Shown one piece after another: positions 10,601-37,200 of a stretch of 46,114 nucleotides of DNA. Within the stretch, counting starts at the first letter, position 1; each line of letters opens with the position of its first letter. The notes below the pieces were generated by a model. The model was not told the origin of the DNA. It did no database searches and was given only the letters and a program-made list of their open reading frames with translations. Source of the stretch: a virus; the IMG/VR virus record IMGVR_UViG_3300031707_000033, positions 1 through 46,114 of that record; one strand, written 5' to 3'. The translations under genes were made by a program, and so were the position numbers.

Positions 10601-13169
10601 TTCCTTGGTTGCTCTGCAGGTAAGGAATCAGGTTAGCACTCAGATCGAACATGGCCTTAGTGGAGTTGAGAACGTAGTCAACCTGGTTAGGCCTCATCAT
10701 ACTTATTTGACCCTTTGAGTCCGTAGCCTTCACCATCGTACCAACAGGAGTTAGTTGGCCATCACCTTTCTTGTATTGGTCTGGAAAGGCTAAGTTGGAC
10801 CGAAGAGCTGTTGTAGGGCTAATCCACACCCTTTCCCCCGTCTTAGCTTTGATTACAGGAATTTCGATGTCAGTACCCCGCTTACGAACTCCTAACGCAA
10901 GTTGCAAAGTTGTACCTATTTTTTCGCTGTTGCCCGACCAAAAACCTACGCTGCCATGACGACGTACATAGAGCAGACTCCCTGGTACAGTGGCACAGTA
11001 AACTATTCCATCATAATCCACCGTGTAGTAATTGGCGGGGTAGTAAGGATGTGCAGGACGTGCTGTTCTAACCGGATGCTCCAACAGTCTAACCCCATGC
11101 ACGTCCAAATAACGACCTTCTCGCTTGTCTTCGTAGACTTTACGGCTGACAGGTAGGCCTAACCCAATTGCCAGCCTTTCAAAATCATCGGCCAGTCTTT
11201 GACTAGTTGTCGTGAGTACCCTTTGGTGGTATGAACGACCATCTTTTCTATTACCGGAAAGGCACCCATCCCCAAGAAGTAACGACTCCAGCAACGCGGT
11301 TCTGGCCTCGATGCTGGTAGTAGCCCGAAAGAAAACTTCAGGGATATATTTGTCGTTACAGAAGCCAAATTCCTTCAGATAGTGTGCAAGTTGTTTAGAC
11401 CCAGTAGCCCAAGATGTCCTTTCTCCGTCGTGTGACCAAGTCCAAGGTAATCTGGAAAATAGACTCCTCAGCCTCCCCCAGTTTTCTTGGTTGACCTTGA
11501 AACTTTGAGATATTCGAACCAGATATGCAGAAGTTTCTTCTTTGTAGGTTACACACCCCTCCGATAAATACCAACCCATAAACTCAGCCCAATCTCTCAT
11601 GGGGATCAGGCTGTGAAGTTTTAAGGCATTTCCACCCTCAACTTCTGGAAGAGAAAACATCTCTTCTACAGGAATCGGATCTTCCAAAACAAAGGGCGCA
11701 TGGGATGTTATGAACCGGCGCTCTTTACCGTGAATCCTATCCGCGGTATCAGTCTTCCATACGTCGGGCTGCCACGGAGTTGAGTGATAAACGCGATGAT
11801 TAGGGGTAACAAGATAATCAATTTTGCTGGCTAGAAGACCGTACATTGGGCCTTTATATGGCAGTCTGATCAACTTCTCTGGTTTGTGAAATTCTAACGC
11901 CCCATCAATTCTACAGGCTAAGAGATCCTGGTCGGTTACGTCTTTCCAATATTTCCAGCCCTTGAAAGTGAAAACTTCTGTTTCGGCATCAAAACATTCG
12001 GGACTCTGGATCGGATCTAGGAATCCTGTATGGCTAGGGTTGATGATTTTTGCGCTAAGAACAACCTGGTGCTCCTTTTGAATGCCACCCTCTCCACGAA
12101 TAGTAGTACGCCGATTTCCCCCAATGTAGCTCATAGGGTTCATCTGGTCGGGTCGCTCGGTTGATGTACCTTGGGTAAAAAACGCCTTGATCGGCTTCCC
12201 AAAGATATCAGGCCCCATGATCTGTTTGACTTCAGTGTGTTTGTCTATTCCGTTGAGAAGCTTCCGTTTGATGTCCCATTTATGCTTCCTGACCAGTCGG
12301 TCAGATAGAAGATCCTCAGCGGAGTAAAGATCTTTGAACTCCAGAGAATCCCGGTCGTCGGGCTGCTCTTCTCCACGGGATACTTGTAGTATTCTTTCAG
12401 AACCTGCCAACAGGGCAGCACCGTCCACTTTATCAAAGGGCTTGCCCAGCGTAAGTTTGGTGGCCTCCGGTCGCATTTGGGTGCGGCCAAACTCTTCGAT
12501 AACTAACTTCTCGGCCTGGTCGTTGGAAGTTGGGGGCTCATCCTTAAAAGCTTTGTAGAACTTCCGTAAGGCGATGTCGCTCTTTTCTTTCTTGTTGGCC
12601 GACAAGATCTCCTTACCCCATTTTCTCTCTATCGTGTCATCGTCTACTCCCATCGCTTTGAGAATAGGGTAGAGGGGGATGTGAGACCCAGTTCCAGAGA
12701 AATTGATGGTCATACTTTTGGACTTCGGGTCAAAGTCCATGTTGAAGTTCAAACCCTTAGCTAAGTTCCACTGAGAGGCCAACTCACCATTCTCTTTGAC
12801 ATGCGTATAAACACCAGACTTCAGGCGAAACAGGTTGTTCACCTGGTATTCAGTGCCACCCACAATGTAAGTGTACCGGTTCGTGATTTTGGGAAGTTGA
12901 GCTACAGTGGCAACCTGACGGTCCTTGACCTTGCCAGTTTCTTTGTCTCGAAGCTCAAACTCTGCCCGAACAGGAACAGCCCACGTACGGTCGTTAAGAC
13001 GGGCTTCTTTTTGCCCGCGGAGGTCATCTATGTCCCGGTTGTCATCTACCCAGACTTTGGTAGCAACAAGAAGGTTCTTTCGCCCCTCTAGGGGAAATTG
13101 ACCCTTGATTGTTGAGGATACCCTACTTTTGAGAACTTCGAACGCTTCTTGAGGATCATAATGTGCCAT
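4695..13169 (-). CDS. rpoBC: Fused beta-beta' multisubunit-type RNA polymerase carrying two inteins
   Basis: A single 2824-aa frame encodes a beta-like half followed directly by a beta'-like half. Beta signatures include GRHGNKGIITGVFP, preceded by DKIV, so both active-centre lysines are present, then LLNPTGVPSRINVGQILE and PRKGGPHGGQTMDAMGLYAM. Beta' signatures include the metal-binding NADFDGDKM (residues 1720-1726), SGAKGNWDQFKQM, SEDCGTGTG with CAHGKGLCAKC (the four zinc cysteines) and GVIAAQALGEPATQLSM. The beta' N-terminal zinc ribbon is missing. Inteins occupy residues 392-747 and 2167-2577; removing them leaves about 2057 aa, shorter than bacterial beta plus beta'. ATG 13169 is preferred over the in-frame GTG 13184 because GGGAG lies 6 nt before it. 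No alpha, omega or sigma gene is seen. Its place between portal and spike genes could mean a virion-carried or late enzyme; that is inference. Confidence 0.95.
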   Translation of the reverse strand: MAHYDPQEAFEVLKSRVSSTIKGQFPLEGRKNLLVATKVWVDDNRDIDDLRGQKEARLNDRTWAVPVRAEFELRDKETGKVKDRQVATVAQLPKITNRYTYIVGGTEYQVNNLFRLKSGVYTHVKENGELASQWNLAKGLNFNMDFDPKSKSMTINFSGTGSHIPLYPILKAMGVDDDTIERKWGKEILSANKKEKSDIALRKFYKAFKDEPPTSNDQAEKLVIEEFGRTQMRPEATKLTLGKPFDKVDGAALLAGSERILQVSRGEEQPDDRDSLEFKDLYSAEDLLSDRLVRKHKWDIKRKLLNGIDKHTEVKQIMGPDIFGKPIKAFFTQGTSTERPDQMNPMSYIGGNRRTTIRGEGGIQKEHQVVLSAKIINPSHTGFLDPIQSPECFDAETEVFTFKGWKYWKDVTDQDLLACRIDGALEFHKPEKLIRLPYKGPMYGLLASKIDYLVTPNHRVYHSTPWQPDVWKTDTADRIHGKERRFITSHAPFVLEDPIPVEEMFSLPEVEGGNALKLHSLIPMRDWAEFMGWYLSEGCVTYKEETSAYLVRISQSFKVNQENWGRLRSLFSRLPWTWSHDGERTSWATGSKQLAHYLKEFGFCNDKYIPEVFFRATTSIEARTALLESLLLGDGCLSGNRKDGRSYHQRVLTTTSQRLADDFERLAIGLGLPVSRKVYEDKREGRYLDVHGVRLLEHPVRTARPAHPYYPANYYTVDYDGIVYCATVPGSLLYVRRHGSVGFWSGNSEKIGTTLQLALGVRKRGTDIEIPVIKAKTGERVWISPTTALRSNLAFPDQYKKGDGQLTPVGTMVKATDSKGQISMMRPNQVDYVLNSTKAMFDLSANLIPYLQSNQGNRAMMASKQLEQAVSLKYREKPMVQVKSEGNQTFEEIVGGFTSHQSPEAGKVMKVKDDAILIRGKDGVRHEVQIYHHFPMNDDTSELHSHSLVQEGDDVKKGQVVADTNFTKDGTLALGTNLRVAYMPFKGYNYDDGIVISRSAANKLTSEHLFRNSVYAERNIILDKKKFRAQVGAVTSKAVMDKLDDDAVIKPGERVETGDVLIGSMRLEEITPDEQKVALISKKLVKPIKPRPLIWEKDVPGVVTQVVKHGKSITVYVSAETPADVGDKIVGRHGNKGIITGVFPDHEMPKSKDGVHAEVLLNPTGVPSRINVGQILETAASKIADKTGKTLIINNFDSSIPDYTRHLKKELDKLGLSDTEEMVDPVTGRSYGQVLTGKQYILKLHHTATKGLKARFRDAYDSNMTPRKGGPHGGQTMDAMGLYAMLAHNARENIREMQTFKSDKNDDFWTLLQAGESVPTPKIPFVFKKFEGYLRGMGLDIDKQGNDLILQPLTDKKTLEMSNGELKDAGATLVGRNLKPEPGGIFDSAITGTKGLGFLGDKWSHITLAERMPNPVFESSIISLLGLTSPQYKDIIESKKDLDGKTGPAAIVDALKKIDVSKEKKDLETAIPTSREGNLNKATRKLKYLRTLERLSMSPKEAYTIKHIPVLPPIMRPVTVLDSGKMNFDGLNKLYTMLANSNDKLKEFDPKVMPESEAHPLRSELYDGVKSLTLTGAVNKGRHLNSIATVISGEGQPKEGFFQDKVIGKRQDLSMRGTIVPEPSLSLDEVGIPRKAAQEIYKPFIVQRLVQQGRTPLQAQKLIKENTEEVSRALETVMSERPLLLKRDPVLHKFGVQAFIPRIVEGKAVKIHPLATSGYNADFDGDKMSAFVPVSSKAVKEAFKMVPSNNLFSPSNGYLMFKPTQESMMGLFKLTQFKPGIGVRHFNDVADAARAVKDGRLGMNDPVIIRDLKEIKAGLDKLSASKVTSVGRLMVYNALPPSDRHEKVLHDPKFTLGKDNLTDLLTEVAQKERGSFARVADKLKDLGNEASTGLSVSLKDFMSYANERDSVLDHAKKEESHVRTNSKFSQKKKDEEVVRIYSDAGKKIDSAVKKKLEGSQNRMYDWVKSGAKGNWDQFKQMTVAPMLVSDAKGVIVPVPITKSYSEGLDIGSYWTAMHGARMGTINRVEGTWQPGLASKQIMQTTMDQMIVSEDCGTGTGIRMGIDDRGIIGRYTVGDIDLGSRIGKDKGVIPNGTLVTPDLLNRFKNNKIADIRIRTPLKCAHGKGLCAKCYGINEEGKLHEVGTNVGVIAAQALGEPATQLSMNCVASGTLVSVLNPKDLMEILTLDQLWNKIDSTVDNDNGLETKISSGWKVWDYDRFTRVYTIQRHLPDDVMNLVRLEDGHAVVVQGNHPNWARRCIVICPHCGGDDPVKFVGHWKLSSRTNPKTSVRCPSCKGTFSIFRSLYEDQQEIVVDAKNLENMEMGTSSVWVPGKDSQKTRLPLPPYLLGIFVTEGNVRRLKTMPRMKEGRKHRNTASYGLHWKILSADISQKFGAVRTRIKAELKKAKLIFTEPSPKILQLNDTELSRNLWQQCGIHSYRKTLPPGWAVLSSIGRLDLLSGLIDGDGTITKNKICFDTTSVALVSQVTALVLSLGGIPAVYSTPWRRYSKHQGYRVSFTLPVRLTGVKRNKPVDGPAYKGSYRKVVSVKPVSYEGWTYDLATESKAFTANGIRTHNSFHTGGIVGARGTQAASTFTRLNQLLGLPERLPGSAVLSQADGHIEKIDKDPAGGWDVFIKGQRHYVPGSRELVVKRGDAVKKGDAITLGPKNPREMLKLTGLNSVQSYLVNEIQGVYKNTSPLSRRNTETFVRALTNLSEVKDPGSHPELLRGDMSPTSEIEDFNRKLPKDKKAIIHSPVLKGAAMLPLDLQEDWIALLQSRGLKQTIINAASEGWRSLVHSTHPIPGMARGSEFGKGTEKEPWLY
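5439..6671 (-). mobile_element. Intein 2 of the RNA polymerase (411 aa), LAGLIDADG type with internal zinc ribbon
   Basis: The intein starts with Cys (CVASGTLVSVL) directly after GEPATQLSMN and ends with THN before Ser (SFHTGGIVGAR). Removing it restores the beta' motif QLSMN-SFHTGG, equivalent to E. coli QLTMR-TFHIGG in the trigger loop. Two LAGLIDADG helices are visible (LLGIFVTEGNVRR and LLSGLIDGDGTITKN), so it probably encodes a homing endonuclease. Between the N-terminal splicing block and the endonuclease lies a zinc-ribbon-like insert (CPHCGG ... CPSCKG) that is not a standard part of the splicing fold. The block B motif is QGNHPNW. Boundaries are set by the first Cys, the terminal His-Asn and the restored host motif. 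Confidence 0.92.
10929..11996 (-). mobile_element. Intein 1 of the RNA polymerase (356 aa), LAGLIDADG type, unusual Gly-Asn end
   Basis: It begins with Cys (CFDAETEVFTFKGW) after IQSPE and ends with FWSGN before Ser (SEKIGTTLQLALG). Removal restores PIQSPE-SEKIGTTLQL, equivalent to bacterial beta CPIETPEGPNIGL, a conserved segment of the rifampicin region. Block B is VTPNHRVY. LAGLIDADG helices are FMGWYLSEGCV and LLESLLLGDGCL. The last residues are Gly-Asn rather than the common His-Asn, and the C-terminal block reads VYCATVPGSLLYVRRHGSV, very like the end of intein 2 in the DNA polymerase gene of this window. Confidence 0.92.
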
Positions 13170-13226
13170 TAACGACTCCCACACCTACGTCTTTTTCAAC
13201 GGCGCATACCGTCTAACGTAGTGAGA

Positions 13227-14401: not shown

Positions 14402-17400
14402 CTAAGAAGACTGAGCTTCAGGACCTCGACGAGGAACCCTTTGCGGGGGAGCCGGTGTAGCTGCTGAGCTTCTTTCTGCTCCAGTTGCCTGCTGTAGGAG
14501 TACCAGAACAAGGCTGTAGAGCTGCGGGTTATTGACCTGCATTTTCACCAGCTCGTGGTTCTTTTCATGATCAGGAAGCTTGTTCAGCCACTTGACCACT
14601 TGGGAAGCCACAGACTGAAGGTCTAATCCAAAGCTCGGGTTCTCTGGCAGTTGCGACTGCACCTCACCCATTGCTGGAGGTGATCCGCCCGCTCCCTGAT
14701 TTACTCCAGCCTGTTCAACCGGACCTTCTTCCATCGGTTGGATTGGAGGAATCTCCATACCGGGAATTTGGCCGCTGCGATTCATCATCTCACTCTGCGT
14801 GTTCATCATCTGGCCTTCAGCAGCAGGGCTGGCTAATCCTGGTTGGCCCATTCCAGGCATCGGCTCCGCAGCGGGCATACCCTGACCTGCGGCTTCAGGA
14901 GTCATTTCCGTCATCAACTTTTGACCGCGCATCTGGTACTTGGCCATGATGAGCTGGGCTTCACCTTGAATAGAAGCCTGACTGAGAGCCTGATTCCTCT
15001 GACCCTCCAAAACCATCTTCCTCTCGCGCTCGATACCCTCGGCCTCTTTTCGGGAATCCCAGTCTGTATCTTCGAGCAGGGACTTATCGCTAATCTTTCC
15101 GGCCTGGTTGAGTTGCATGTAGAAGGCGCTGCGCTGCAGGTCGTCTGCCATCTTGAACCGTTTGTAATGGCATGGAACCGAGTCCCAGCCCATGAACGCT
15201 GAAACGTTGGGCATGATGAAGTCTGTCACCAGTTGCTTGCGCTGAGTCTTGACGTCGAGAAAATGATTCTCTAGAATACGCATTGAAACGTTAGAGCCAG
15301 AATTGTGCGTAACTAAGCCATCCGCAACGTATGAGTGATCAGTATCAATCGTTAAATCACCCATTGGAACTTCGAAATCAAACAACTCAACCTCTTGAAC
15401 CTCATCCCATATGTAATGGGCTTCAGCCAAAAGCTCAATCCTCTTGGCTAACTCAGGTTCTTTTTCACGTAGAAAAGATAGGTCGGTGTCAGAGAGCCTG
15501 GAATAAGTCATCCCGTCAGCGCTACGTCCTGGAATCACCTTGTGAACCCCACGCCCATAATGCTGCAAGAAAGCTTGCAAGTCCTCACGAAGGATTAGAT
15601 CTGTACCAAATCTCCCAGAAACTCCGGGCAGGGTACGACCTACTTTAAGGCGACCTTGCTTAATGTGGTAGTGAACTGTGGTGAAGTCACGTTCAAGAAT
15701 ATCAGCGACCTCCTGAACCGTGTACTCCTCTTTGTCCAACTGAACATTGATAGGTTCGAAACTCCAGCTTTGTTTGCCTGTAAAATACTTTTGACGAACC
15801 TGGTCCAAAGCTTCCTTGAGATAGGGGATACGTTCTCCTACATGAGTCTTTCCAACGGGGGTACGATTTTTCAGATATTCTTGTTTAATTGTGGAAACAA
15901 ATCCAATTTCTTTGGCAAAGACGTCTATATATTCAGAGCGAATTTGCAGCTGCCACATTTCAGACGTTGGGTTGAAATACCGAGAGGAGACTATTCCCAT
16001 ATTCAGAAGAAGCAATTGAATCTGTTTAAGCAGCTCTTCAGATTTGGAGCCGCAAGATACCATCTGCTTGCCAGTGTTACTCGTTGAGACTGAGCCGTCG
16101 CCCTCAAAGTACGCTCGAAGAAACTCAGCAACCAGATGCTTGGGCGCTTGTCTTACGCACCACGGCACAACTTTATTATACGAGTCACCTATCGCCCCCA
16201 TTGCTTGAAGAAGTAAAACTGCAGGACGCCGTCCTATTTCCGTTGTAGTGCAGCCAAACCCGCTATCCCATTTAGTGGGCCTGTACCCAAAAACATTTTC
16301 CACGGTATTAAGGAAGTCGTCCATAACCTCCTGGCATTTTTGTGTAAAAGCCAGACTGGTCTCTCCACAAGTGCCTTCAGAAATCAAATAGCCCAAGAGT
16401 CGAGCAATACCTAAAGTAAGCTCTTTAGAGAGTTGTGGAACCGGGAACCGTTCTGCCGTTCTAACCAGCTTCTGTGACTGTCTCCACTCCTCAATCTGTT
16501 CAAAGGCTTTTTGTGGAACTGAGGGCGTCTCAGAGGGCCACAAATTCATTCCGGCCCTTACCGCAATGAAATCTCCAGCGATAATCTCCGAAGTCTTTTT
16601 CCACACCATCGAAATATCTTTGCTCAGCACGAGAAAACGATGATCATAAGATGACTCGGAGTCCAAGCCTAATTTGGTACGAATGAGAGAATTCTTTTTT
16701 GTCCCCGTATTATGAGCAGCTTCTATTCTTTGTGTGCCGATTCTTGTGGCCACAGAAACTTCTGAACTACCCGCAGTAGTGCCATGGGCAGTTGGAATTA
16801 AATCCTTTAGCTGAACTAGACCTTTTGAAGAGAAAAGATAGCTGTCAATTTTTTTGCAGTATTGCATCCCACCAAAAACGAACTCAATCGGAACGCCCAT
16901 ACCAGCGATGATGTGCTCCGCCCACTGACGATACTCTTGAGCAAGCATAAGAGCTTTACCATCACCACCAAGAGTCTCTGACCCAATAGGGACGGGGAGA
17001 ATAGGAATGTAATTGTTGTCGAGTCTCCACCGTATGAGCTCGTTCTCAATCTTGTCTCTCCACTGGGTCAAATTGACCGTCGAATTATGTGTAGCTACAC
17101 CAACAACGCAGAAAGACTTGTCTCCCTCAATTTGAAGACCCCGTACGGTCTCTACGTTAGTTACAGTCTCTATACTGTTTACCCGTAGATACACGTAGTC
17201 CCCGCGGAAAAATCCACATTGGCTGTGTGTATCAATTCGCCTTTCAACCTTTGCAGGGTCCCACCCCAGAAGTACTGCCAGGTCTTCTGCCTGTTTTCCA
17301 TTTACATTTACGTGGTAAATGGGGAGTTTAGAAATTTCATCCTCACGAGGAATCCGCTGTTGAACCCCTGCAATAAAACCGAATGACAAAAGCAGTTGGC

Positions 17401-19318
17401 GCACTTCAACAGCAAGCTCGGGACTTACTGTCATTAAGTTTACCCGACGGGTCTCAGTGGCGATGTTACACCCATCCCCGTCGTACACTCCTTGTAGCGC
17501 CGCGAGCGCAATATTGTCGGGAGCCTCCAACAGAAATCTTGGCAGCCTCTTACTATGAGCCCCACGCCCGCACACAGTGGTTAAAAACTGACCTAAAAAG
17601 ATGTCATTGATTTCATACCGGGCGCTATTGCCGTTGAAACCCCGAGTAGAATCTCTAAAGCCCAGACGTTTTATAGCCGCGTCTAGGCGGTCCATTAAAT
17701 GGGCTTCTTTGACATGTAATGCTATTGCGGCGCAGTCACCCTTCGGAGTTCCCTCGGCAATATATAGGCCAATTACATACGCCAGATCCTCATCCACCTT
17801 CAGATATCTAGGAATCCGGTCAATGGTATCCTGCTGCGTAAAAGCAGCCCGGGCATTCTTGTAGTCATCAAGGTCCCAGCCCTGCTGCTTAATGAAGTTC
17901 TCCCGACCCCCTCGTTCAAAAGCCTGCAGACCGTTGACCTCCAAGTACTCATAAATATTGGCCGCAGATTGATTCAACCTGCGATATATGAAATTTTCCG
18001 TTACGGCCCGTTCTGGGATGTACTCGGCCAAATCTAGCTCAAGGCTGCCCCAGGTAATTCTCTTACGGGGATATAGAACGTAGTCACCCTTCTGCAAATC
18101 ACCTGCGTTAATCCACTCAGGCTCCCCTACGTTCTCATATCTAGGACCGAGTTTTCTGGCGGCATAAAGGGGATGTTCCCCTGTTACTGTAAATGGGAAA
18201 GCAGATAAAGAAGCAGCCGTTATTTTGTGTACGGAGCTTTTATCTACTGGTCGGTCTCTTACGTCCTCTACTCGTTTCCACAAACCGGTATGTGTCTTTA
18301 CCCAATCGCCCGCATGAACCTCACCTGCTGGCCGGATGCCTTCTCTAGTTTCAACCAGCGTATCTAAAGAGACGCAATAAACATCCGCACTAGATGAGGC
18401 AGACTGTGGAAACAGGATGCGGAGGGGCACAATGTGCTCAATCGCAATGGCTTCTTGAGCCTTGCGGAGTACCTGAAGGTAGAATGTGTCCTTCAAGACC
18501 GGAAGAATCATCGGCATCCCCCAACCACGGTCCTTCTGGGCGATGGTGGGTCGCTGCATATGGTAGATGTTCTGACGGCTGAATAGCAAAGCCTTGTTCT
18601 TCCTCAGAGCTTCAATGAACACTTGAGGGATCTGCTCAATAATATGCCGCTTGGCCATACGAACATCATTGGCCAGGGATGGCGGAATAACATAGTAGTA
18701 ACGATTGTCCCCCGTAGCTTCGTTGTGCTGAATAGTGATGTACTCCGGGTTCCACCGGATGAGCCGAATGTCCCGCGCTGACCGAAGGTAATGATCCTTG
18801 ACTGAAAACTCCCCGTAGTACCGACAGTAGGGGCATTCACCCACAAAAGCGTACTCCCGGAAGATGTACTTCTGCTGGTCTACTTTCACCATCCGGCTAC
18901 ACTGTTTGCATTTCAGCATCTTCTGAAATGGGAAGTACAAGCTGACAAACGCGTTACCGTATGTGTTGTAGTCAAGGCCAGATTCCACTTCGAATTTCTT
19001 GAAGTGGAGAATGTCACTGAAGAACTTACTCCACCGATCGTTGAGATGGTCGCTATCCCCATCAAATACCAAGTCAGTAACCGGGTACTCTGACATCTTG
19101 TAGCAAACGGCATTGATGAGCGGATTGGTCAGGAAATAATACCTGCACCAACGAAGCATCGTCTTGAAGGACGTCGGCAGATATGTATGGGCAATATCGA
19201 AAAAGGGTGAAGGGTACCGGATAGCTCCAAGGGCCTCTCCAGTTATAGAGCGACCACTGTTTCTCGCAAAACGCATAGCCCCCGATGGGCCAAAACTCAG
19301 GGCATCAAGAGTTGGCAT
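14402..19318 (-). CDS. Portal-like protein carrying two inteins
   Basis: The frame is 1638 aa; after removal of inteins (residues 315-745 and 821-1339) about 688 aa remain. The host sequence has portal-like features: an N-terminal wing with FFDIAHTYLP, a long helical stem (GMPMILPVLKDTFYLQVLRK then AQEAIAIEHIVPLRILFPQS), the GMGVPIEFVFGG-x-Y-SGSNVSMRILENHF segment typical of portals, and a Gln/Met/Pro-rich disordered tail. A zinc-ribbon-like pair (CKQC ... CPYC, residues about 135-165) is inserted in the wing. In the family a dodecamer sits at one capsid vertex and passes DNA. Its start overlaps the preceding stop (TAATG). No terminase is in the window, so the call rests on sequence pattern alone. 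Confidence 0.72.
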   Translation of the reverse strand: MPTLDALSFGPSGAMRFARNSGRSITGEALGAIRYPSPFFDIAHTYLPTSFKTMLRWCRYYFLTNPLINAVCYKMSEYPVTDLVFDGDSDHLNDRWSKFFSDILHFKKFEVESGLDYNTYGNAFVSLYFPFQKMLKCKQCSRMVKVDQQKYIFREYAFVGECPYCRYYGEFSVKDHYLRSARDIRLIRWNPEYITIQHNEATGDNRYYYVIPPSLANDVRMAKRHIIEQIPQVFIEALRKNKALLFSRQNIYHMQRPTIAQKDRGWGMPMILPVLKDTFYLQVLRKAQEAIAIEHIVPLRILFPQSASSSADVYCVSLDTLVETREGIRPAGEVHAGDWVKTHTGLWKRVEDVRDRPVDKSSVHKITAASLSAFPFTVTGEHPLYAARKLGPRYENVGEPEWINAGDLQKGDYVLYPRKRITWGSLELDLAEYIPERAVTENFIYRRLNQSAANIYEYLEVNGLQAFERGGRENFIKQQGWDLDDYKNARAAFTQQDTIDRIPRYLKVDEDLAYVIGLYIAEGTPKGDCAAIALHVKEAHLMDRLDAAIKRLGFRDSTRGFNGNSARYEINDIFLGQFLTTVCGRGAHSKRLPRFLLEAPDNIALAALQGVYDGDGCNIATETRRVNLMTVSPELAVEVRQLLLSFGFIAGVQQRIPREDEISKLPIYHVNVNGKQAEDLAVLLGWDPAKVERRIDTHSQCGFFRGDYVYLRVNSIETVTNVETVRGLQIEGDKSFCVVGVATHNSTVNLTQWRDKIENELIRWRLDNNYIPILPVPIGSETLGGDGKALMLAQEYRQWAEHIIAGMGVPIEFVFGGMQYCKKIDSYLFSSKGLVQLKDLIPTAHGTTAGSSEVSVATRIGTQRIEAAHNTGTKKNSLIRTKLGLDSESSYDHRFLVLSKDISMVWKKTSEIIAGDFIAVRAGMNLWPSETPSVPQKAFEQIEEWRQSQKLVRTAERFPVPQLSKELTLGIARLLGYLISEGTCGETSLAFTQKCQEVMDDFLNTVENVFGYRPTKWDSGFGCTTTEIGRRPAVLLLQAMGAIGDSYNKVVPWCVRQAPKHLVAEFLRAYFEGDGSVSTSNTGKQMVSCGSKSEELLKQIQLLLLNMGIVSSRYFNPTSEMWQLQIRSEYIDVFAKEIGFVSTIKQEYLKNRTPVGKTHVGERIPYLKEALDQVRQKYFTGKQSWSFEPINVQLDKEEYTVQEVADILERDFTTVHYHIKQGRLKVGRTLPGVSGRFGTDLILREDLQAFLQHYGRGVHKVIPGRSADGMTYSRLSDTDLSFLREKEPELAKRIELLAEAHYIWDEVQEVELFDFEVPMGDLTIDTDHSYVADGLVTHNSGSNVSMRILENHFLDVKTQRKQLVTDFIMPNVSAFMGWDSVPCHYKRFKMADDLQRSAFYMQLNQAGKISDKSLLEDTDWDSRKEAEGIERERKMVLEGQRNQALSQASIQGEAQLIMAKYQMRGQKLMTEMTPEAAGQGMPAAEPMPGMGQPGLASPAAEGQMMNTQSEMMNRSGQIPGMEIPPIQPMEEGPVEQAGVNQGAGGSPPAMGEVQSQLPENPSFGLDLQSVASQVVKWLNKLPDHEKNHELVKMQVNNPQLYSLVLVLLQQATGAERSSAATPAPPQRVPRRGPEAQSS
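15302..16858 (-). mobile_element. Intein 2 of the portal gene (519 aa), LAGLIDADG type with helix-turn-helix insert
   Basis: It starts CKKIDSYLFSSKG after FGGMQY and ends LVTHN before SGSNVS. LAGLIDADG helices are IARLLGYLISEGTCG and FLRAYFEGDGSVS. Near the C-terminal end, before the final splicing block, is a MerR/excisionase-like helix-turn-helix (EEYTVQEVADILERDFTTVH, then YHIKQGRLKVG and LREDLQAFL). This DNA-binding insert is unusual in size and type and explains the length of the intein. It may help the endonuclease recognise its target. Confidence 0.88.
17084..18376 (-). mobile_element. Intein 1 of the portal gene (431 aa), LAGLIDADG type
   Basis: It starts CVSLDTLVETREG after SSSADVY and ends GVATHN before STVNLTQW. 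Block B reads VTGEHPLYA. Two endonuclease helices are visible (YVIGLYIAEGTPKG and ALQGVYDGDGCN). Removal joins SSADVY to STVNLTQWRDKIENEL within the predicted portal stem/wing region. All splicing residues (Cys1, block B His, terminal His-Asn, Ser+1) are present, so it should be active in splicing. Confidence 0.9.
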
Positions 19319-20833: not shown

Positions 20834-23008
20834 CTATACGCTAATACCGCGCTCACCCGACATACCGTCGCTCTCGGCATCCGAGGCCATACGAGCAATA
20901 AGACGCTTTTGGGGGTCGGGCATCGAGTTGAAGATTCCAATTGGGTCTTTTCTGAATTCGTTGCCCACCGTGTAGGTGAACTTCTGGATGATAAGGTCCA
21001 GGCGGTTCTCTGCCAAGTTGGTAAGAGCATCCTCTGTTACAATATCCGCACCACTCTCCCACACTACTTTCGCGGCGGCCTTACCAAAGGTAGATGCCCA
21101 GGGATCAGGAACAATATGATCCCAACCTTTATCGAGGCCTTCGTTGATGTCGAAGCGCTTCAGGCATTCCGAATAGATCTCTGGGTAGATCGAGGCTTTC
21201 TTCTTAAACAGCTCGTCTAGGAACTCCCGGGCGTTGCTCTTAGGAGCACAAGCCACCTTACGCATGTCGATGGCGTCCCGTAGGGTGTTCTCATCTGCGT
21301 AATGAGTAGACCCAAGGTTCGCAATCTCTATTGCAACGGGATAACCCATTGTGAACGCTTTTGCGGCTAGCTTAACCGCAAACTGCCGACGAATTTCCGG
21401 TTGGATTTTGACACTGTTCTCGAGGAAATAGTCTTCGGCCTTCTTGACCATATCCCAAGTGTGAATTGGGTACTTCCGAGTCCCATCTTCCATAACGACG
21501 GCGTAATCTTCGTCTTTCATTGGTTTGGCTACCTTTACAATTTGTTTCGGGCGCTGCCCAGTCACATCGACCACCGAAGAGATCTTCTGGGCCTCTTCAT
21601 CTGCAGTCAGGGACTTCAACGCTCTGACTCCAGTATTTCCCGCCAAACCGCCCGCTGCTATCGAGGGTACTGCCAGACCCGCAGTTGCAACGCGGGCGGC
21701 TCTACTCATCTTCTTTTCTGCGTTTTCCAAGGCTGCTACCGATGGTTTGCCCTTTATTTTTATCCTCGGAGAGACACTCTTTGCATATTCCGAAAGCTTT
21801 TTACTGACGGGTCCTCGAAGAGCATTTCTGGCTAGGGTCGACCCACCAGCTCCAGCTGCTCCACCAAGTAGCGCACCCTCCAATCGATGCCCTTCTCCAG
21901 CAGCCGCGCCACCACCGGCAGCACCCGCCAAAGTACCGCCAACCGGGATGATGTACTTTCCAACACCGGCCGCCTTCGTCAAGGTCGCTGGAGGAAGTAA
22001 ACCGTGATGTAAGCATGCTGCCAACAGATTGGATGCTGCTACCTTCTGCGCGGTCTCAGGAAGCTTGTCTCCATGTTCCATAAAGTAAATCACAGACATG
22101 GTCGTCGTACCGGGGTCCACGCAGGCATACTTCCGAAAAACATAACCCCGGTCGACCATGATGAGGGCGAAGTCCTCATTCGCTAGTTTCTCCTTAGGGA
22201 GAACCGACGCTTCCTTGATGATCTCAGGAACTTTGTCCAACGTAGGGAACTTACCTTTCAAGGTCATGCCCTCATCGTCGTACCAATCAATCGTTACTCC
22301 TGCGTATTTGTGGCCTTCCATTGAGGACTCCTTACCAAATTGCATTGACCCGGTCATTCCAGGATCACCAAAAGTACCTTCGTTGTTTGTCGTTTTCCTA
22401 GGGGATTCCCAGTCTCGCAAAGTACCACCCCCAATAATGCCCCCTAGAATAGCACCACCAGCGGCAGGGAGAAGAGAATGTTCTGGGAGCAGTCTCCCCC
22501 AGGATGCTCCTGCTGCCGCTCCTAATAGGCCCCCGATAGCACCTCTCACAGCCCCATGAGCTCTTTCCCCCTCAGGAGCTGTAGCTGCACCAGATAATGA
22601 CCCCAAAGCAGCTGCAGCACTGAGACTCCGAGAAAGGTCAGCAGCACTATCGGCAAGCTGTTCGACTCCATGCTCAACTACTGTAGTCACAGTCTTAGGA
22701 ATTTCTTTTTGGATCTTCCTCAAGGCTGGGAAAATCTTCTCTTCAAAAAGGGGCTCAATCCTTTTTTCAGCACCCCGAACAACTGACTCGCCTATGTTAT
22801 TTCCGATTTCCGGAATATGCCGTTCGAAGGCCGGTCCAAGCTTTTTACCAGCCGACTCAATCGCGGATTCCGTGGCACTAGAAATTACCTGGTTCAGCCC
22901 TTTACTTACAGACGGTTTCTTAACGGCTTTCTCGACGCTTTTTCCCGCCCAATCAAAAAGTCTACTCTTTAAGAAATTGGGTAGCCCGATAGCTTGTTTT
23001 TCAGTCAT
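20834..23008 (-). CDS. Large glycine-zipper virion-type protein, 724 aa
   Basis: The N-terminal 100 residues are basic and amphipathic (KSVEKAVKKPSVSKGLNQVI, ETAIPK-like helices). Two Gly/Ala-rich hydrophobic segments follow: residues about 135-205 (AAALGSLSGAATAPEGERAH, GGLLGAAAGASWG, GGAILGGIIGGG) and about 345-395 (GGTLAGAAGGGAAAGEG, LLGGAAGAGGSTLARNALRG). These look like glycine zippers that pack in membranes, as in DNA-ejection or pore-forming proteins. The C-terminal third is helical and soluble. ATG 23008 is the first base after a solitary CRISPR repeat; only a weak GGA lies upstream, so initiation may depend on the structure of that repeat. An internal virion or ejection role is inference. 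Confidence 0.78.
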   Translation of the reverse strand: MTEKQAIGLPNFLKSRLFDWAGKSVEKAVKKPSVSKGLNQVISSATESAIESAGKKLGPAFERHIPEIGNNIGESVVRGAEKRIEPLFEEKIFPALRKIQKEIPKTVTTVVEHGVEQLADSAADLSRSLSAAAALGSLSGAATAPEGERAHGAVRGAIGGLLGAAAGASWGRLLPEHSLLPAAGGAILGGIIGGGTLRDWESPRKTTNNEGTFGDPGMTGSMQFGKESSMEGHKYAGVTIDWYDDEGMTLKGKFPTLDKVPEIIKEASVLPKEKLANEDFALIMVDRGYVFRKYACVDPGTTTMSVIYFMEHGDKLPETAQKVAASNLLAACLHHGLLPPATLTKAAGVGKYIIPVGGTLAGAAGGGAAAGEGHRLEGALLGGAAGAGGSTLARNALRGPVSKKLSEYAKSVSPRIKIKGKPSVAALENAEKKMSRAARVATAGLAVPSIAAGGLAGNTGVRALKSLTADEEAQKISSVVDVTGQRPKQIVKVAKPMKDEDYAVVMEDGTRKYPIHTWDMVKKAEDYFLENSVKIQPEIRRQFAVKLAAKAFTMGYPVAIEIANLGSTHYADENTLRDAIDMRKVACAPKSNAREFLDELFKKKASIYPEIYSECLKRFDINEGLDKGWDHIVPDPWASTFGKAAAKVVWESGADIVTEDALTNLAENRLDLIIQKFTYTVGNEFRKDPIGIFNSMPDPQKRLIARMASDAESDGMSGERGISV

Positions 23009-23038
23009 GTTTCAATCCACGCCCGCGCGACGGGCGAC
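23009..23038 (-). CRISPR. Solitary type I-C-like CRISPR repeat (30 nt) abutting a start codon
   Basis: On the minus strand the segment begins GTCGC, contains the hairpin GCCCG-TCGCG-CGGGC, and ends GCGTGGATTGAAAC. These ends match the known type I-C repeat pattern, whose usual length is 32 nt; here the stem is 2 nt shorter. The next base is the A of ATG for the 724-aa gene. No second repeat, spacer array or cas1/2/3/5/7/8 gene is visible. A candidate promoter ends about 18 nt before the repeat would be transcribed, so it would be part of that mRNA leader. Solitary repeats in phages are known to act as RNA-based anti-CRISPRs by capturing Cas proteins; a role in controlling the downstream gene is a further possibility. 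Confidence 0.88.
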
Positions 23039-23062
23039 ACAATAAAGGGCTCCAGACGGTTG

Positions 23063-23092
23063 ACCGTACGCCCCAAGATGGCCGTTGGTCAA
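23063..23092 (-). promoter_or_regulatory. Candidate promoter reading into the solitary CRISPR repeat
   Basis: Reading leftwards, TTGACC (23092-23087) is followed after 18 nt by TACGGT (23068-23063). The -35 is identical in sequence and spacing to the candidate promoter of the RNA polymerase gene; the -10 matches only 3 of 6. Initiation near 23056 would place the CRISPR repeat about 18 nt from the 5' end of the transcript. Confidence 0.4.
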
Positions 23093-23164
23093 GGCGAAAT
23101 TCCCGGGATTTATTAGGGATAAGAACTTTGAACTAAGGTCCCAAAACCTAACTGGAGGTAATCT

Positions 23165-23665
23165 ATGCCGATTTCCCAAAGGCAGATCGTACAAGAGTGT
23201 TTCGACGGTGACCGCGAACGAAACTGTACCTACTGCCCTGCACATCATTCGAAGACAGGTATTTGCTGCTTCGGATGCAAATTTGAATATGATGACCCTC
23301 AATGTCATTCATGCCCTCATGTCAGTCACTGCGAACCAGAGGCAGCTAGGTATACAGGTCAAAGTCCCTATTATGGTCCTTCTGCACAACCTAGTCCGCC
23401 ACGACGAATTACCATCAACCGACCTTCTACTACAACAGGTTTCGCACCAACTCCACAAACAAGAGCTACCGTACCAGTGTACGGCCAAGGACACCCGGTT
23501 AGAAGAGACGGAAGTATCATTGTTCCACAGGTACGAACAGCGAGACCTATACTGTTTCCAGAGGATTCATTTTGGAGGATGATGAGTTTGAATGCTGCTT
23601 GGGGAGCGGTAGAAGGGGCGTTAGAAATGCTGCTCGGGTTCTTCCGGCAGCGTAGACCGGAGTAG
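23165..23665 (+). CDS. Cys-rich zinc-binding protein with hydrophobic C-terminus, 166 aa
   Basis: First gene of the long plus-strand arm, with GGAGG 6 nt before the ATG. The N-terminal 60 residues hold eight cysteines plus histidines (C21-x2-C24-PAHH, CC-x2-C at 34-38, C47-x2-C50 and C56), enough for two zinc sites. A Pro/Thr/Arg-rich unstructured linker (residues about 60-120) follows. The C-terminus (SLNAAWGAVEGALEMLLGFF) is an amphipathic or hydrophobic helix with a basic end, perhaps membrane- or protein-contacting. The family is unknown. Early position suggests a host-takeover or regulatory role, but that is inference. Confidence 0.72.
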   Translation: MPISQRQIVQECFDGDRERNCTYCPAHHSKTGICCFGCKFEYDDPQCHSCPHVSHCEPEAARYTGQSPYYGPSAQPSPPRRITINRPSTTTGFAPTPQTRATVPVYGQGHPVRRDGSIIVPQVRTARPILFPEDSFWRMMSLNAAWGAVEGALEMLLGFFRQRRPE

Positions 23666-23673
23666 AAACTGGT

Positions 23674-24087
23674 ATGGAACAACCATTCCATGAGGCAATA
23701 AGGAAAGCCCGGTTTGAATCTCAGTACCCAAGATTATGCGACTTCGTAAGGGTTTCTAGGGTCAGCCACGATACTTACGTGCAATATGAGAGTGGACTAA
23801 GGTTACCCAAATTGCAGTCTCTGAACCGCATCATCCTGCACTCTGGAATATCGGAACAGACAGCCAAAAAACTCAGAGAGATCCACGCCATTTCATTGGC
23901 CAGAAGGTTGGGAGTTGAGATGCGGCAACTCCCGCCTGGCTTAAAAGCGTCAGAGCTAGCAGAGAAGATCCAACGGGAGGTCGAATACGAATTGAAAAGA
24001 GTGGGAACCTTTATTACAAGGAACACCAGTAGGGTTTGTGCTCGACGTATCGAAATACTGCTGAAAGACGCATTGAGGATCCCATGA
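23674..24087 (+). CDS. XRE/Cro-type helix-turn-helix protein, 137 aa
   Basis: Residues about 8-60 fit the Cro/C1 helix-turn-helix pattern: a first helix (EAIRKARFESQ), the recognition region (VRVSRVSHDTYVQYESGLRL), then PKLQSLNRI, matching the usual YESGxRxP signature. The C-terminal half is a charged helical region. Such proteins bind operators as dimers, so this is a candidate regulator of early genes or of the divergent promoter region 160-660 bp upstream. Its stop overlaps the helicase start (ATGA), so the two are co-translated. Confidence 0.75.
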   Translation: MEQPFHEAIRKARFESQYPRLCDFVRVSRVSHDTYVQYESGLRLPKLQSLNRIILHSGISEQTAKKLREIHAISLARRLGVEMRQLPPGLKASELAEKIQREVEYELKRVGTFITRNTSRVCARRIEILLKDALRIP

Positions 24088-26486
24088 ACTACCATTTCCT
24101 GCCAAAAGACCGAGACAAGGCCTACATCACCAACAATTTGATGCTTCCAAAATGCGGATTGAGAACTCTGGAAGCCCCTACTAAACGGGCGCTGACTTTT
24201 GTGTATGGTGAGACAGAGGTACGCGACGAGCTTGGAGAGCTCATAATGGTCCGCCCTGCTGAACTTCTGTTATGGCAGGAAACCCAGCACCACCTCATTG
24301 TACCAAGGGAATTTCTCAACCCCCGGCAATATCCCCAGTTTGGGTTCGAGTTCATTGACCAACGACCAGTAGACTTTCCGTTTGTAGAGATTGAGGACCG
24401 TGCAGACTTTCGAGATGAGAGCCAACGAAACGCTTTCCGAGCCATGGAGGAGAACCACAGTGGAACTGTGAACCTTGCCTGTGGAAAAGGAAAAACTTTC
24501 CTGGCTCTCAAACTCGCTGCGTGCCTTCAGGTCCCTACAATGATCGTTGTGAACTCAACTGCTCTTCTTGAGCAGTGGAAACTGGAGATTGAAAAATTCT
24601 TAGGTGTTGGTCGCGTTGGTGTCATTCAGGGGCCCATAGCAGATTGGGAACACCCCATTGTGTTAGCCATGGTACACACATTGTCCAAACATAGGGAATC
24701 CTGGTCGATGAGATTCCGGAAGAGATTTGGTTTGGCCATATACGATGAATGTTTTCCCGCCAATACCTTAGTAGGAAATATTCCTATTCAAGAAATCCAT
24801 CCAGGAGATCTGGTTTCCAGCTATGACCAAACTAGCCACAGGCTCCTGGATAAAAAAGTGGTTAAAGTATTCAAAAATCCTGTTTTATCCCTTGTTAAAA
24901 TAACCGCTGGTGGAAAAAGCGTAGTTTGTACACCAAATCATCCGTTCTTAACTAAAAATGGATGGGCAAAAGCTGGGAACTTGACAAGCGATGACATGGT
25001 GTATAGCACCACAAAAACTTACAAACCCAAAAGAGACGGTGAACATGACTATTCCCAGAACAGTAAACACCAAATGCAAAGAGTGTGGGACCCCGGTGCA
25101 AAAATCGGGGAAGGCTGGACTAGAACAAGTGAGACGAAAAGCGGTGTATTGCTCCCGACAGTGCGCGGTAACTCGTCTTTCTCGAGAAAGCTCGAAAAGA
25201 ATGGCACAAACCAACCGAAAATACGCGTCGGAGAGAATGAAAAAGAACAATCCCATGAAACGGGCAGAGGTACGAGCGAGGTTGAGTACAACTTTACGAG
25301 CAATGGGATGGGCCCCCACGGTACAGGGAGGAAACGGAAGGTCAGCGCCGATTCCTCAGCAGTTGCTAGCGTGCGCCTTGGGGTGGCCAATGGAAGTGTC
25401 TGTGGGGATACCAAACCCCAAGATAAACAACAGTGCCAAAGTTTACAAACTGGACATAGGAAATCGGGAATTGAAAGTAGGAATAGAGGTAGACGGGAAT
25501 TCCCATTCCGCATTGATAAGGAAAGAACAGGACCAAAAAAAGGAGAAAATCCTAATTGGGTTAGGGTGGACAATATTGAGATTCTCGAACCAGGAAGTGA
25601 CGGAACATTTGGAGGATTGTGTCCAGACGGTTTTGTCTACAATCTCGAAGTTGAAGACACCCCCACTTACTTCGCTAACGGATTTGTAGTTCATAACTGC
25701 CATCACATCGCAGCACCAACCTTTGTAAAGTCTGCCGATTTATTCTTCGGTAAACGTATAGCACTGACTGCCACTGCCACTCGCATTGACGGGCTGGAGG
25801 CGATCTACCAGTACCACCTTGGGTCTGTTATTCACAAAAACTTAGAACAGGACTTGATTCCAACGACGTATTTTCATCGACTGAAATGGGAGTTCGATCT
25901 TCGGAACAAGCCACTCGTAACCGACAGCAACGGGGACTTTAACCTCCCTCGTATACGCACCTATTTAGGGGAACTTGACTGGAGGAATCAGATCATTTAC
26001 AGAGACCTCCTTTCTGATCTCCAGGAAGGACGGCAAATTCTGGTTCTTAGCCACAGCGTAGAACATGTGGACCGTCTCCAACAATGTTTTTGGGGCAGTG
26101 GTCACCGGGCAGGTACCATTACTGGGGAGACACCACAAGAAGAGCGCATGGGAGTTTTGCGGCAGTGCAACCCCGTCATCGGTACTTTCCAACTCGCTAG
26201 GGAGGGACTCAACAAACCCTCTCTGGATACTCTGTATGTGACCACACCGTTTTCTAGCCCCAATGACCTGCAGCAGGCATGGGGGCGGATTCAACGGGTG
26301 CTACCGGGTAAGCAACCCTCTCTAGTACGGGTCTATGAAGACCTGCCGTTCAAGATGTGCCGGGGTTCGTGCTCCAGCCTACGAAGTCACCTCAGGAAGA
26401 TTGATTATCCATCACACAAACTAGAAGTGGAGATTCCAAATGAGCAAGTACAGCAACATGGTCGTAATAATATCCAAACACGGTGA
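24084..26486 (+). CDS. SF2 DNA helicase (UvsW/XPB-like) with an intein in the DEAH box
   Basis: ATG 24084 overlaps the previous stop (ATGA); a longer upstream version lacks support. The 800-aa precursor gives about 484 aa after removal of residues 223-538. Helicase motifs are seen in order: motif I ACGKGKTFLALKLA, motif Ia, motif II split by the intein (IYDE-CHHIAAP, a DECH box), motif III LTATATRIDG, motif IV ILVLSHSVEHVDRLQQ and motif VI QQAWGRIQRVLPG. Related phage enzymes remodel forks and recombination intermediates by ATP-driven branch migration. It leads the replication and recombination arm and overlaps the next gene by 47 nt. Confidence 0.9.
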   Translation: MNYHFLPKDRDKAYITNNLMLPKCGLRTLEAPTKRALTFVYGETEVRDELGELIMVRPAELLLWQETQHHLIVPREFLNPRQYPQFGFEFIDQRPVDFPFVEIEDRADFRDESQRNAFRAMEENHSGTVNLACGKGKTFLALKLAACLQVPTMIVVNSTALLEQWKLEIEKFLGVGRVGVIQGPIADWEHPIVLAMVHTLSKHRESWSMRFRKRFGLAIYDECFPANTLVGNIPIQEIHPGDLVSSYDQTSHRLLDKKVVKVFKNPVLSLVKITAGGKSVVCTPNHPFLTKNGWAKAGNLTSDDMVYSTTKTYKPKRDGEHDYSQNSKHQMQRVWDPGAKIGEGWTRTSETKSGVLLPTVRGNSSFSRKLEKNGTNQPKIRVGENEKEQSHETGRGTSEVEYNFTSNGMGPHGTGRKRKVSADSSAVASVRLGVANGSVCGDTKPQDKQQCQSLQTGHRKSGIESRNRGRREFPFRIDKERTGPKKGENPNWVRVDNIEILEPGSDGTFGGLCPDGFVYNLEVEDTPTYFANGFVVHNCHHIAAPTFVKSADLFFGKRIALTATATRIDGLEAIYQYHLGSVIHKNLEQDLIPTTYFHRLKWEFDLRNKPLVTDSNGDFNLPRIRTYLGELDWRNQIIYRDLLSDLQEGRQILVLSHSVEHVDRLQQCFWGSGHRAGTITGETPQEERMGVLRQCNPVIGTFQLAREGLNKPSLDTLYVTTPFSSPNDLQQAWGRIQRVLPGKQPSLVRVYEDLPFKMCRGSCSSLRSHLRKIDYPSHKLEVEIPNEQVQQHGRNNIQTR
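24750..25697 (+). mobile_element. Intein of the SF2 helicase (316 aa) with no in-frame endonuclease
   Basis: It begins CFPANTLVGNIPIQEIHPGD after IYDE and ends FANGFVVHN before Cys (CHHIAAP). Block B is CTPNHPFLTKNGW. N- and C-terminal splicing parts (about 90 and 45 residues) are well formed. The roughly 180 residues between them (about 25040-25560) have no LAGLIDADG or HNH motif and look compositionally odd (many Lys, Arg, Ser, Asn, Gly, Gln). In the +1 frame the same DNA encodes a separate, sensible nuclease. The main frame nevertheless has no stop across this region, as it must if the helicase is to be made. Confidence 0.92.
25045..25689 (+). CDS. Vsr/DUF559-like homing endonuclease, out of frame inside the helicase intein
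   Basis: This 214-aa frame lies wholly within the intein but is shifted by one base. It starts at ATG 25045 with GGTGA just upstream and ends at TAG 8 nt before the intein's last base. Domains: an N-terminal zinc finger (CKECG ... YCSRQC, residues about 9-40), a NUMOD3-like motif (ERMKKNNPMKRAEVR) and a C-terminal nuclease core LDIGNRELKVGIEVDGNSH followed by QDQKKEKILIGLGWTILRFS, the pattern of Vsr-like/DUF559 homing nucleases. The acidic and His residues of E-x-D-x3-H are present. It would cut intein-less helicase genes. Free-standing relatives next to split inteins are known; here the intein is continuous. Confidence 0.85.
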   Translation: MTIPRTVNTKCKECGTPVQKSGKAGLEQVRRKAVYCSRQCAVTRLSRESSKRMAQTNRKYASERMKKNNPMKRAEVRARLSTTLRAMGWAPTVQGGNGRSAPIPQQLLACALGWPMEVSVGIPNPKINNSAKVYKLDIGNRELKVGIEVDGNSHSALIRKEQDQKKEKILIGLGWTILRFSNQEVTEHLEDCVQTVLSTISKLKTPPLTSLTDL

Positions 26487-34204: not shown

Positions 34205-37200
34205 ATGGCAAAGGGACAATTCAACATTGACGTCCCGGTTCCAGAGTTCGTGAACACTGACCAGGACGCCGCAGAACTCTTGCGGCTGTGCCTCCGCAAG
34301 ATAGAGGTAGACCCCAACGATTTCATCGGATGGGATACAGAGACTCACGGGAAAAAAATACCCATTGACTCAAAACCTCTGGACTGGATGAACGACACCG
34401 TCACGTTTTGGTCCCTATCTTTTGCACTACGCGAAGGTGGGGAACCTAAATACCGTAGGTGGTGTCTACGTCAAGAGCACTTCCATTTCTTCTCCCCATT
34501 CTTGGAGAATCCCGGCTTCAACATCGCAGGATGGAACCTGAAGTATGATGCTCACATTGCATGGAACTGCCGGATCAATATTTGGAACTCACGACGACCA
34601 GTGGACGGGTTGGTACTAGCTCAACTTCACGACGAGAATCGGCATAGTCACGGTTTGAAGACGTGCGCAGAAGACTGGGTGGGTTTGCAGATGACCCCCT
34701 ACAAATCCCTGTTCGATGGAATACGAGATTCCTCGGGCAAAAAGGCAAAGGAGTACGAAACATCCCTATTGGACCTTGTTCAACAAGGTCACCAGGATAG
34801 AGTTGCAGACTACGCTTCCTATGATGCCTTCGCCCATCTGAAAACAGTGGAATGGCTGATGGAGCGGCTAAAAGAAACTCCGGTGGGGGAAGGGAAATCT
34901 CTTCTGGATTACTTCTTCGAAACGGAGATGTACATTACGGAACTCCTGTGGAGGATGGAGCGACGCGGTATCTACTTAGACAGGGATTACTTGAGGTCCA
35001 AGCTGCCCGAGCTGAACCGTCGGTTATCAGAGATTGAGAATGACATCAACCGTGATTCCGCGCGGCCCCTCAACTTGGATTCTCCGAAGCAGCTTGCTGC
35101 GTACTTCTTTGGTACGGGACCCAACCAACTTGGGTTGAAGCCTGTAAAGATGACCGCCACTAATCAGCCGTCTACAGATGTAGAGGTTATGGAAGCATTG
35201 GCAGAGGCTGGTGTTCCTGTAGCCAAAAAGGTCTTAGAGGCTCGTGGTCTTAGTAAAACCAAGAATACTTACGTGGAGGCTCTTCTTCATCTAGCGGACT
35301 ACTTTGATGACAAGCGCATTCACCCCAACTTCAACCAGCTAGGAGCCCGATGCCTCCCGGTAGGAGAATTGGTACTTACGAACAGAGGCTATCTACCAGT
35401 TGAGAGAGTCAACAAGGGGGATTTGGTAATATCCCATACTGGATTGCCGCGGGTAGTAACGGATGTAATCCAAAACGGAGTCAAACCTATATGTAAAGTG
35501 ACTCTCAGTAATGGACTCTCCCTGCGAACCACGGAGAACCATGCGTATTTGACAGATCTCGGATGGGTAGAAGCCCAAAATCTGCAGGAGGGTGCTACAG
35601 TTTACGCACACTCCGGGCCGGAAGAATGGGCCTCAATTGTGGGATGGCCTGACTTTTCAGTAAGTTCGTGGGGCCGAGTATTCAACAACAAAGTTCAGAG
35701 GTTTGTAACACAATGGCCTAAAGGAAAATGGGGGCATAGAAAAGTAGCCTTGCGAAATAACGGATCCCAAAAGAGGGGGTCCAACTTCAAGGATTTTTCT
35801 GTACATCAACTAGTAGCACGGGCTTTTCTAGAGAAACCTCGGAAGGGTCAGGAAATCAGACACCTCAACGGCATCGCGTGGGATAATACCGTAGGTAACC
35901 TATGTTGGGGTACCTCAAAGGAGAACAGACAGGATGCAATAAAACACGGCACAATGTTAAAGAGTGACCCCAGTAGATTGGTAGTAACAGACGAAACGGT
36001 AAAAATAATACGTACTACTGAATTCACGCGGGGGTCTGACTACCGATTGGCAAAACAACTAAACATAAGTCGGGAGCATGTTCGAGACATTAGGACATTC
36101 AAAAGACGTAAACCAGGGCCAGAGATTGCGGGAGGTCGTGCAACCTTCTTTGCAACCACGGTAGTTGAGATTGCAAAATTACCAGAAGAGATGACATATG
36201 GGCTTACAGTAGAAGAAGATCATTCTCATGTAACTGGTGGAGTAGTGACCCACAATACGGGTAGGCTCTCAACTACTACCCCAAACTGTTTTGACTCACA
36301 GACAGAAATCTTGACCAAAACAGGGTGGGTTGGCCTTCAGTATCTGTCAAAGAAAGATTGTGTGGCACAGTGGCATAAAGAAAATGGTGTCATTGACTTC
36401 GTACAGCCTCTGCGAGTGGTAAAGGAACAGTATACGGGAGAGATGGTTAGTATCCAGAATCAACATATCGATTTGGTACTTACACCCAATCACCGTTGTC
36501 CTTTAGTCAAACGAAGTGGAAGATTTGAAATTGTAGAAGCCAACAATTATCAGTCTGACCGGCAACAACTTCATGCCGGAATATATCAAGGAGGTACAGG
36601 GCTACCATTAGGAGATGATATGATCCGACTTTTGGTTGCCACCCAGGCAGACGGAAGTTGGTCATGGTCCCAGTTAGACTTTGGATTCACTAAGAAAAGG
36701 AAGATTCAGCGTCTTCAAAAACTCTTAAAATCAGTAGACGCGGACTTTGATTGTAGCGATCAGCTAAAAAAGGCTGGTTATACCGTTTCGAGGATCCGTG
36801 TACGAGGTCTAGTAGTCCAGCGGTTGAAGAATCTACTAGGGAACCACAAAGTGTTTGGACCATGGATTCTAAAAATGACTCGGCATCAACTGGATGTCTT
36901 CTGTGACGAACTGTTCTTTTGGGATGGGTATGCCGCGGGAGAAACTATGTACTCCTCATCGGCACACATCAATGCTGATTGGGCTCAAATTGCTCTGGCT
37001 CTTAGCGATCGGCGTTCTAAGATGAGGGTATATCTACCGCCGAGCCAAAGACCCAATTATCAGCTGGACACCGTCAAAAGAAACTACAGTTGGACTACTA
37101 ATGTAGAGATCACCCATCAACCTTCAGAAGGGAGAGTTTACTGTCTTACCGTTCCTTCTGGGTTTGTGGTGGTCCGTAGAAATGGAAAAGTTTGCATATC

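Follow-up and report, generated by a model that had tools for sequence, protein, structure and literature searches.

Solitary repeat units (SRUs) constitute a published class of elements, of which 2,103 have been described on viral sequences (PMC10651486). RacrIC1, a type I-C solitary repeat, has been shown to inhibit type I-C as an RNA anti-CRISPR (PMC10651486). Cas5d recognizes CRISPR repeat RNA through a hairpin and a 3′ single strand, both of which it requires, and cleaves at the base of the hairpin to give a handle of 11 nt (PMC3890593). How RNA anti-CRISPRs of the solitary-repeat kind are embedded in phage transcription units has been little described. Here, we analyze a virus contig of 46,114 bases (the window, by which we mean this whole stretch), probably a piece of a larger genome, in which a single type I-C-like repeat directly adjoins the start codon of a 724-aa open reading frame (ORF).

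The repeat and the gene that follows it

The features of the locus are as follows, with the basis of each in brackets:

23009..23038, minus: type I-C-like repeat of 30 nt, solitary; GTCGC, then a stem-loop, then GCGTGGATTGAAAC (sequence, Rfam match, predicted fold)
20834..23008, minus: 724-aa ORF, the ATG of which adjoins the repeat without a gap (sequence, homologues, codon usage)
23012..23014, minus: in-frame TGA inside the repeat, GAT-TGA-AAC-ATG (sequence)
23039..23046, minus: TTTATTGT, candidate -10 directly before the repeat (position about as that of TATGTT/TATACT in relatives)
23060..23092, minus: inverted repeat TTGACC...GGTCAA upstream of the repeat, possibly an operator or a hairpin (sequence)
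23165..23665, plus: first gene of the divergent operon, 166 aa, with a good Shine-Dalgarno sequence (sequence, relatives)
4695-13184, minus: fused beta/beta-prime RNA polymerase, 2829 aa, with a LAGLIDADG domain (protein search)

The minus strand from 23038 to 23009 reads GTCGCCCGTCGCGCGGGCGTGGATTGAAAC, and its context is ...CCCTTTATTGT-GTCGCCCGTCGCGCGGGCGTGGATTGAAAC-ATGACTGAAAAA... The original prediction had placed a 30-nt element here with an ATG adjoining it at 23008, which can be read directly in the sequence, and had assigned it to the type I-C repeat pattern, an assignment borne out by both ends and the stem as well as by comparison with repeat collections. The element has the GTCGC 5′ end, the paired stem and the GTGGATTGAAA(C/T) 3′ end of type I-C repeats. 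Its length is 30 nt against the usual 32; forms of 29-33 nt are found in arrays, one of which (L218) has seven copies of a 30-nt I-C-like repeat. The stem is fully intact, and the hairpin is predicted to fold with -12.1 kcal/mol. With up to three mismatches allowed, GTCGC-N11-GCGTGGATTGAAAC matches once in the window, compared with no match in 100 dinucleotide shuffles. The Rfam model CRISPR-DR9 (RF01322) matches 23040-23009 with 30.3 bits (E = 2.6e-5 for the 201 bases searched), which does not reach its curated cut-off of 45. The best BLAST neighbor, and the best match among plasmids, is a repeat with 40 occurrences in a plasmid of Nitratidesulfovibrio vulgaris; this match, at 45 bits, lies above the 41.1-bit cut-off of SRUFinder (PMC10651486), the scoring of which may differ. 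The lack of matches in the shuffles and the Rfam E-value together rule out a chance match as the origin of the element.

The repeat stands alone, as had been claimed. Its conserved 3′ half, GCGTGGATTGAAAC, occurs once in the whole window even with two mismatches allowed, and a repeat search around 23009-23038 revealed neither a partner nor a partial second repeat nearby; an array or mini-array at this site is ruled out by the lack of a second copy. The absence of a cas gene, also predicted, is upheld for those families that were looked for in the main proteins; a Cas4-like match lies at 40576-41427 among recombination genes. What is found is thus an SRU in the published sense: a match to a known repeat class at an intergenic site in a virus, with no partner repeat and no cas gene of the families looked for.

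The 724-aa ORF cannot start further upstream because of the in-frame TGA at 23014-23012 within the repeat. Its next in-frame ATG, GTG or TTG is codon 96, and its codon-usage signal is positive in frame from codon 1 (the first 25 codons onward), so that any other start codon is ruled out. The only Shine-Dalgarno-like bases ahead of it are a GGA inside the repeat; several other same-strand genes of this phage likewise have no clear Shine-Dalgarno sequence. Residues ~234-343 and 449-710 of the protein have homologues in related phages, which align only from ~234; no homologues were found for residues 1 to ~230, and judging from the sequence this part looks lineage-specific. A search for closer relatives through the same protein returned the same virus only. 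The gene had been described as virion-type, which is partly supported, by a weak tape-measure match (E = 2e-4) and by an operon that also encodes an intein-bearing 1638-aa protein with terminase matches and the RNA polymerase.

The fused RNA polymerase is encoded in the structural operon of the phage, and the divergent plus-strand operon encodes helicases, a primase and a DNA polymerase into which an endonuclease is inserted, together with a recombinase and resolvases. Since genes start at 23008 on the minus strand and at 23165 on the plus strand, 23009-23164 is a divergent intergenic region. Intein or homing-endonuclease domains are present in four proteins of the window: the terminase-like protein (14402-19318), a helicase (24036-26486), the RNA polymerase (4695-13184) and the DNA polymerase (34205-38266).

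The leader in the window and in related phages

Relatives were identified through the RNA polymerase, which in them is mostly 36-44% identical; their contigs measure up to 185 kb. Several of them share the order of a divergent helicase, the 724-like gene or its position, a 290-like gene and terminase. The repeat is absent from all relatives with this gene order. In the three that are readable here (L241, L247 and L264), the start of the gene lies 20-30 nt downstream of a -10-like box (TATGTT or TATACT), and GAGG-, GGGGG- or GGAGG-type sites resembling a Shine-Dalgarno sequence precede the ATG. The repeat has therefore probably been gained and now fills the leader: TTTATTGT stands directly before it and the ATG directly after it, so that it takes up the leader as a whole.

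Where would such a transcript begin? The correspondence of TTTATTGT to the boxes of the relatives is suggested by alignment by eye, and a consensus scan for a sigma-70 promoter found no pair. A genuine -10 at TTTATTGT would place the transcription start somewhere in about the first 4-9 nt of the repeat. Five stem pairs and the 3′ handle would survive a start at G4 but not a later one. The transcript may thus start inside the 5′ arm of the hairpin, which could even exclude transcription across the whole repeat and would weaken even the reading of the repeat as an RNA anti-CRISPR.

Solitary I-C-like repeats and repeat-ATG fusions in viral contigs

Viral contigs were scanned for GTCGC-N10-15-GCGTGGATTGAAAC, and most of the matches listed are solitary. 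At least about 117 distinct solitary I-C-like repeats were collected, that of the window included, nearly all of them from viral contigs. Their stems covary strongly: the outermost variable pair is Watson-Crick in 89% of the solitary repeats listed, compared with 32% when partners are shuffled. Among the matches listed, 65 intergenic cases have both neighbors called by simple gene calling; 38 of these lie between co-directional genes, and in 48 a co-directional gene follows downstream, commonly starting 7-50 nt away.

Two further observations concern the surroundings of these repeats. An extra AAAC (often AAACAAAC) follows 12 of 102 viral solitary I-C-like repeats (L043, L101, L110, L005, L008, L017, L025, L041, L049, L051, L053 and L054), compared with 3 of 1210 host-array repeats. 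In four contigs (L031, L042, L046 and L063; about 0.5 expected), the solitary repeat lies between direct repeats of 9-25 nt, as if it had been inserted with target duplication or by template switching.

A dispersed element of about 115 bp from termite-gut Betaproteobacteria/Accumulibacter (L223, L146, L230 and L144; genomes G001-G003), with 28 copies in one 2.6-Mb genome, should be described here as well. It starts with TTCATC and has two further hairpins upstream of a terminal I-C-like hairpin, GTCGCCCG-N4-CGGGCGTGGATTGAAACAT. It has no match in Rfam at the gathering score, and a TnpB zinc-ribbon model, which bears on an IS200/IS605 or TnpB origin, matches in one of the three genomes.

How often does a solitary repeat run directly into a start codon? 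A search of all viral contigs for a repeat followed by ATG returned ten stretches, several of which are arrays. Across the collection, two or three viruses have a solitary repeat with an ATG and an ORF of at least 40 codons. Besides the virus of the window, one case is convincing: in L272, an unrelated phage for which no relatives were found, a 30-nt solitary I-C-like repeat, GTCGCTTCCTTGGGGAGCGTGGATTGAAAC (7546-7575, minus), runs directly into the ATG of a gene for 73 aa; the operon is compact and has tail-fiber matches, and the upstream stop lies two bases ahead of the repeat. A third case (L266) opens a doubtful 49-aa frame. In about six others an ATG lies 1-6 nt from the solitary repeat, and some of these are not convincing genes. 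The permuted triplet AGT gave no fusions, as expected since AGT is no start. Two exact fusions are no significant excess: about 0.5-1 would be expected among at least about 117 solitary repeats from the start distances listed, on the assumption that these are evenly distributed. A general rule of fusion was rejected, as two or three viruses are too small a sample to reveal an excess.

Possible roles of the repeat and comparison with known systems

We hold with moderate confidence that the element is a phage SRU that mimics a type I-C repeat, most likely acting as an RNA anti-CRISPR that the minus-strand operon carries in its 5′ leader. A plausible RNA anti-CRISPR is also what had been proposed originally, and the proposal finds support in the sequence and structure of the element, in its many viral counterparts and in the published RacrIC1. 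An outline of the putative process is as follows: the mRNA of the minus-strand operon would display the hairpin plus GUGGAUUGAAAC, that is, both the hairpin and the 3′ single strand needed by Cas5d. Cas5c of a host with type I-C would bind the repeat RNA and cut it at the base of the hairpin; the 11-nt handle that remains would be followed directly by AUG, UGGAUUGAAAC-AUG. Cas5c and Cas7 would then stay on this RNA, the start of the 724-aa coding region standing in for a spacer, and would thereby be kept from crRNAs that target the phage. If Cas5c acts in this way, Cas7 would coat the first codons, and both binding and cutting would fall at the translation start. Self-targeting would not be expected, because a guide made from the coding start of the phage would be flanked in the genome by the repeat, just as in a CRISPR array. 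The sequence of the element, its solitude, intact stem, orientation and fusion to the start codon and its absence in relatives are observed; the scheme further presumes transcription of the full repeat, a type I-C system in the host and binding of the repeat by Cas proteins. A repeat identical to that of the window was not found in a genome collection of 84,980 species, and 1300 spacers from similar arrays gave at best 15-nt exact runs against the phage, which are not convincing as protospacers. No acr-like neighbor of the repeat was recognized. An operon encoding terminase and polymerase may be expressed late, which speaks against an RNA anti-CRISPR, since that should act early.

Alternatively, the repeat could be a neutral remnant that recombined from a host array or another phage and landed between promoter and start codon, having a role as leader only. 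We regard this as rather unlikely. It would fit the finding of the repeat in the lineage of the window only, and the short direct repeats that flank some viral solitary repeats are as expected of insertions; the sole other contig covering the site, at 99.86% identity, represents the same virus and gives no gauge of conservation. However, the stem has remained fully intact in an element 2 nt shorter than usual, compensating changes preserve the stem across the class of viral solitary repeats, and most of the intergenic ones listed sit between co-directional genes. It is quite improbable, in our estimation, that the element is instead the end of a different structured or mobile element resembling a CRISPR repeat. 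The termite-gut element is the model for this idea: it ends in GTCGCCCG-N4-CGGGCGTGGATTGAAAC, followed mostly by AT, and Cas5d was not found in two of the three genomes that carry it. Because it ends in almost the same hairpin with Cas5d in only one genome of three, an I-C-like 3′ end alone is no proof of a CRISPR repeat. The window, however, has neither its two upstream hairpins nor its in-register TTCATC end, and the CRISPR repeat model gives 30.3 bits for the window but 22.8 for the termite element.

The repeat may also do something besides, or instead of, serving as a decoy. Translation of the 724-aa ORF could respond to Cas5c, because the sites of binding or cutting would be no more than 11 nt from the start codon, and could in this way depend on the type I-C Cas proteins of the host. 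We consider such control improbable; it would be a consequence of the geometry should Cas5c act on the leader RNA, and is put forward as a possible, testable idea, not as a finding. The repeat occupies the leader from the -10-like box to the only ATG, the GGA within it is the sole candidate Shine-Dalgarno sequence, and in the unrelated phage L272 a 30-nt repeat likewise runs straight into an ATG that is well placed within a tail operon. On the other hand, a clear Shine-Dalgarno sequence is missing from other genes of the phage of the window too, and the two fusions are near chance expectation and about what SRU spacing predicts, so that they do not prove a switch. Decoy and switch could even be combined, a cut by Cas5c of a type I-C host, 11 nt from the start, both titrating and sensing Cas and altering the output of the first gene of the structural operon, an arrangement reached by two unrelated phages; this, too, strikes us as a long shot.

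How does the anti-CRISPR reading compare with known systems? Like the element of the window, for which transcription is presumed, RacrIC1, which lies beside acrIC5 in a prophage of Bifidobacterium pseudocatenulatum (PMC10651486), consists of one I-C repeat within the transcript of a phage operon. RacrIC1 is located 11 nt downstream of an acr gene, whereas the present repeat, a candidate only, is upstream of and adjoining a start codon, with no acr gene recognized. With viral SRUs (PMC10651486) it shares the intergenic and solitary position, often shortly after a predicted promoter, and the repeat-like hairpin. In the SRUs listed here, the distance to the next start is usually large enough for a Shine-Dalgarno sequence, but in the window it is zero. 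Virus-borne mini-CRISPR arrays (PMC6858448) are likewise made of repeats of host type in viruses that lack cas genes, but the window has no second repeat and no spacer. The long tracrRNA and scaRNA (PMC8730458) resemble the proposed switch in that a stand-alone repeat regulates genes outside immunity; they act in trans with Cas9, whereas the role proposed here would be in cis. The literature searched contained no CRISPR repeat serving in cis as an mRNA leader. A repeat used as a ribosome-entry region would offer a clean, one-construct test of Cas processing controlling a phage gene, and its position suggests that surveys of decoys should also log the distance to the next start codon. Lone phage repeats are already known as RNA decoys; what is unusual is the position at the start codon, so far in the virus of the window and one unrelated virus.
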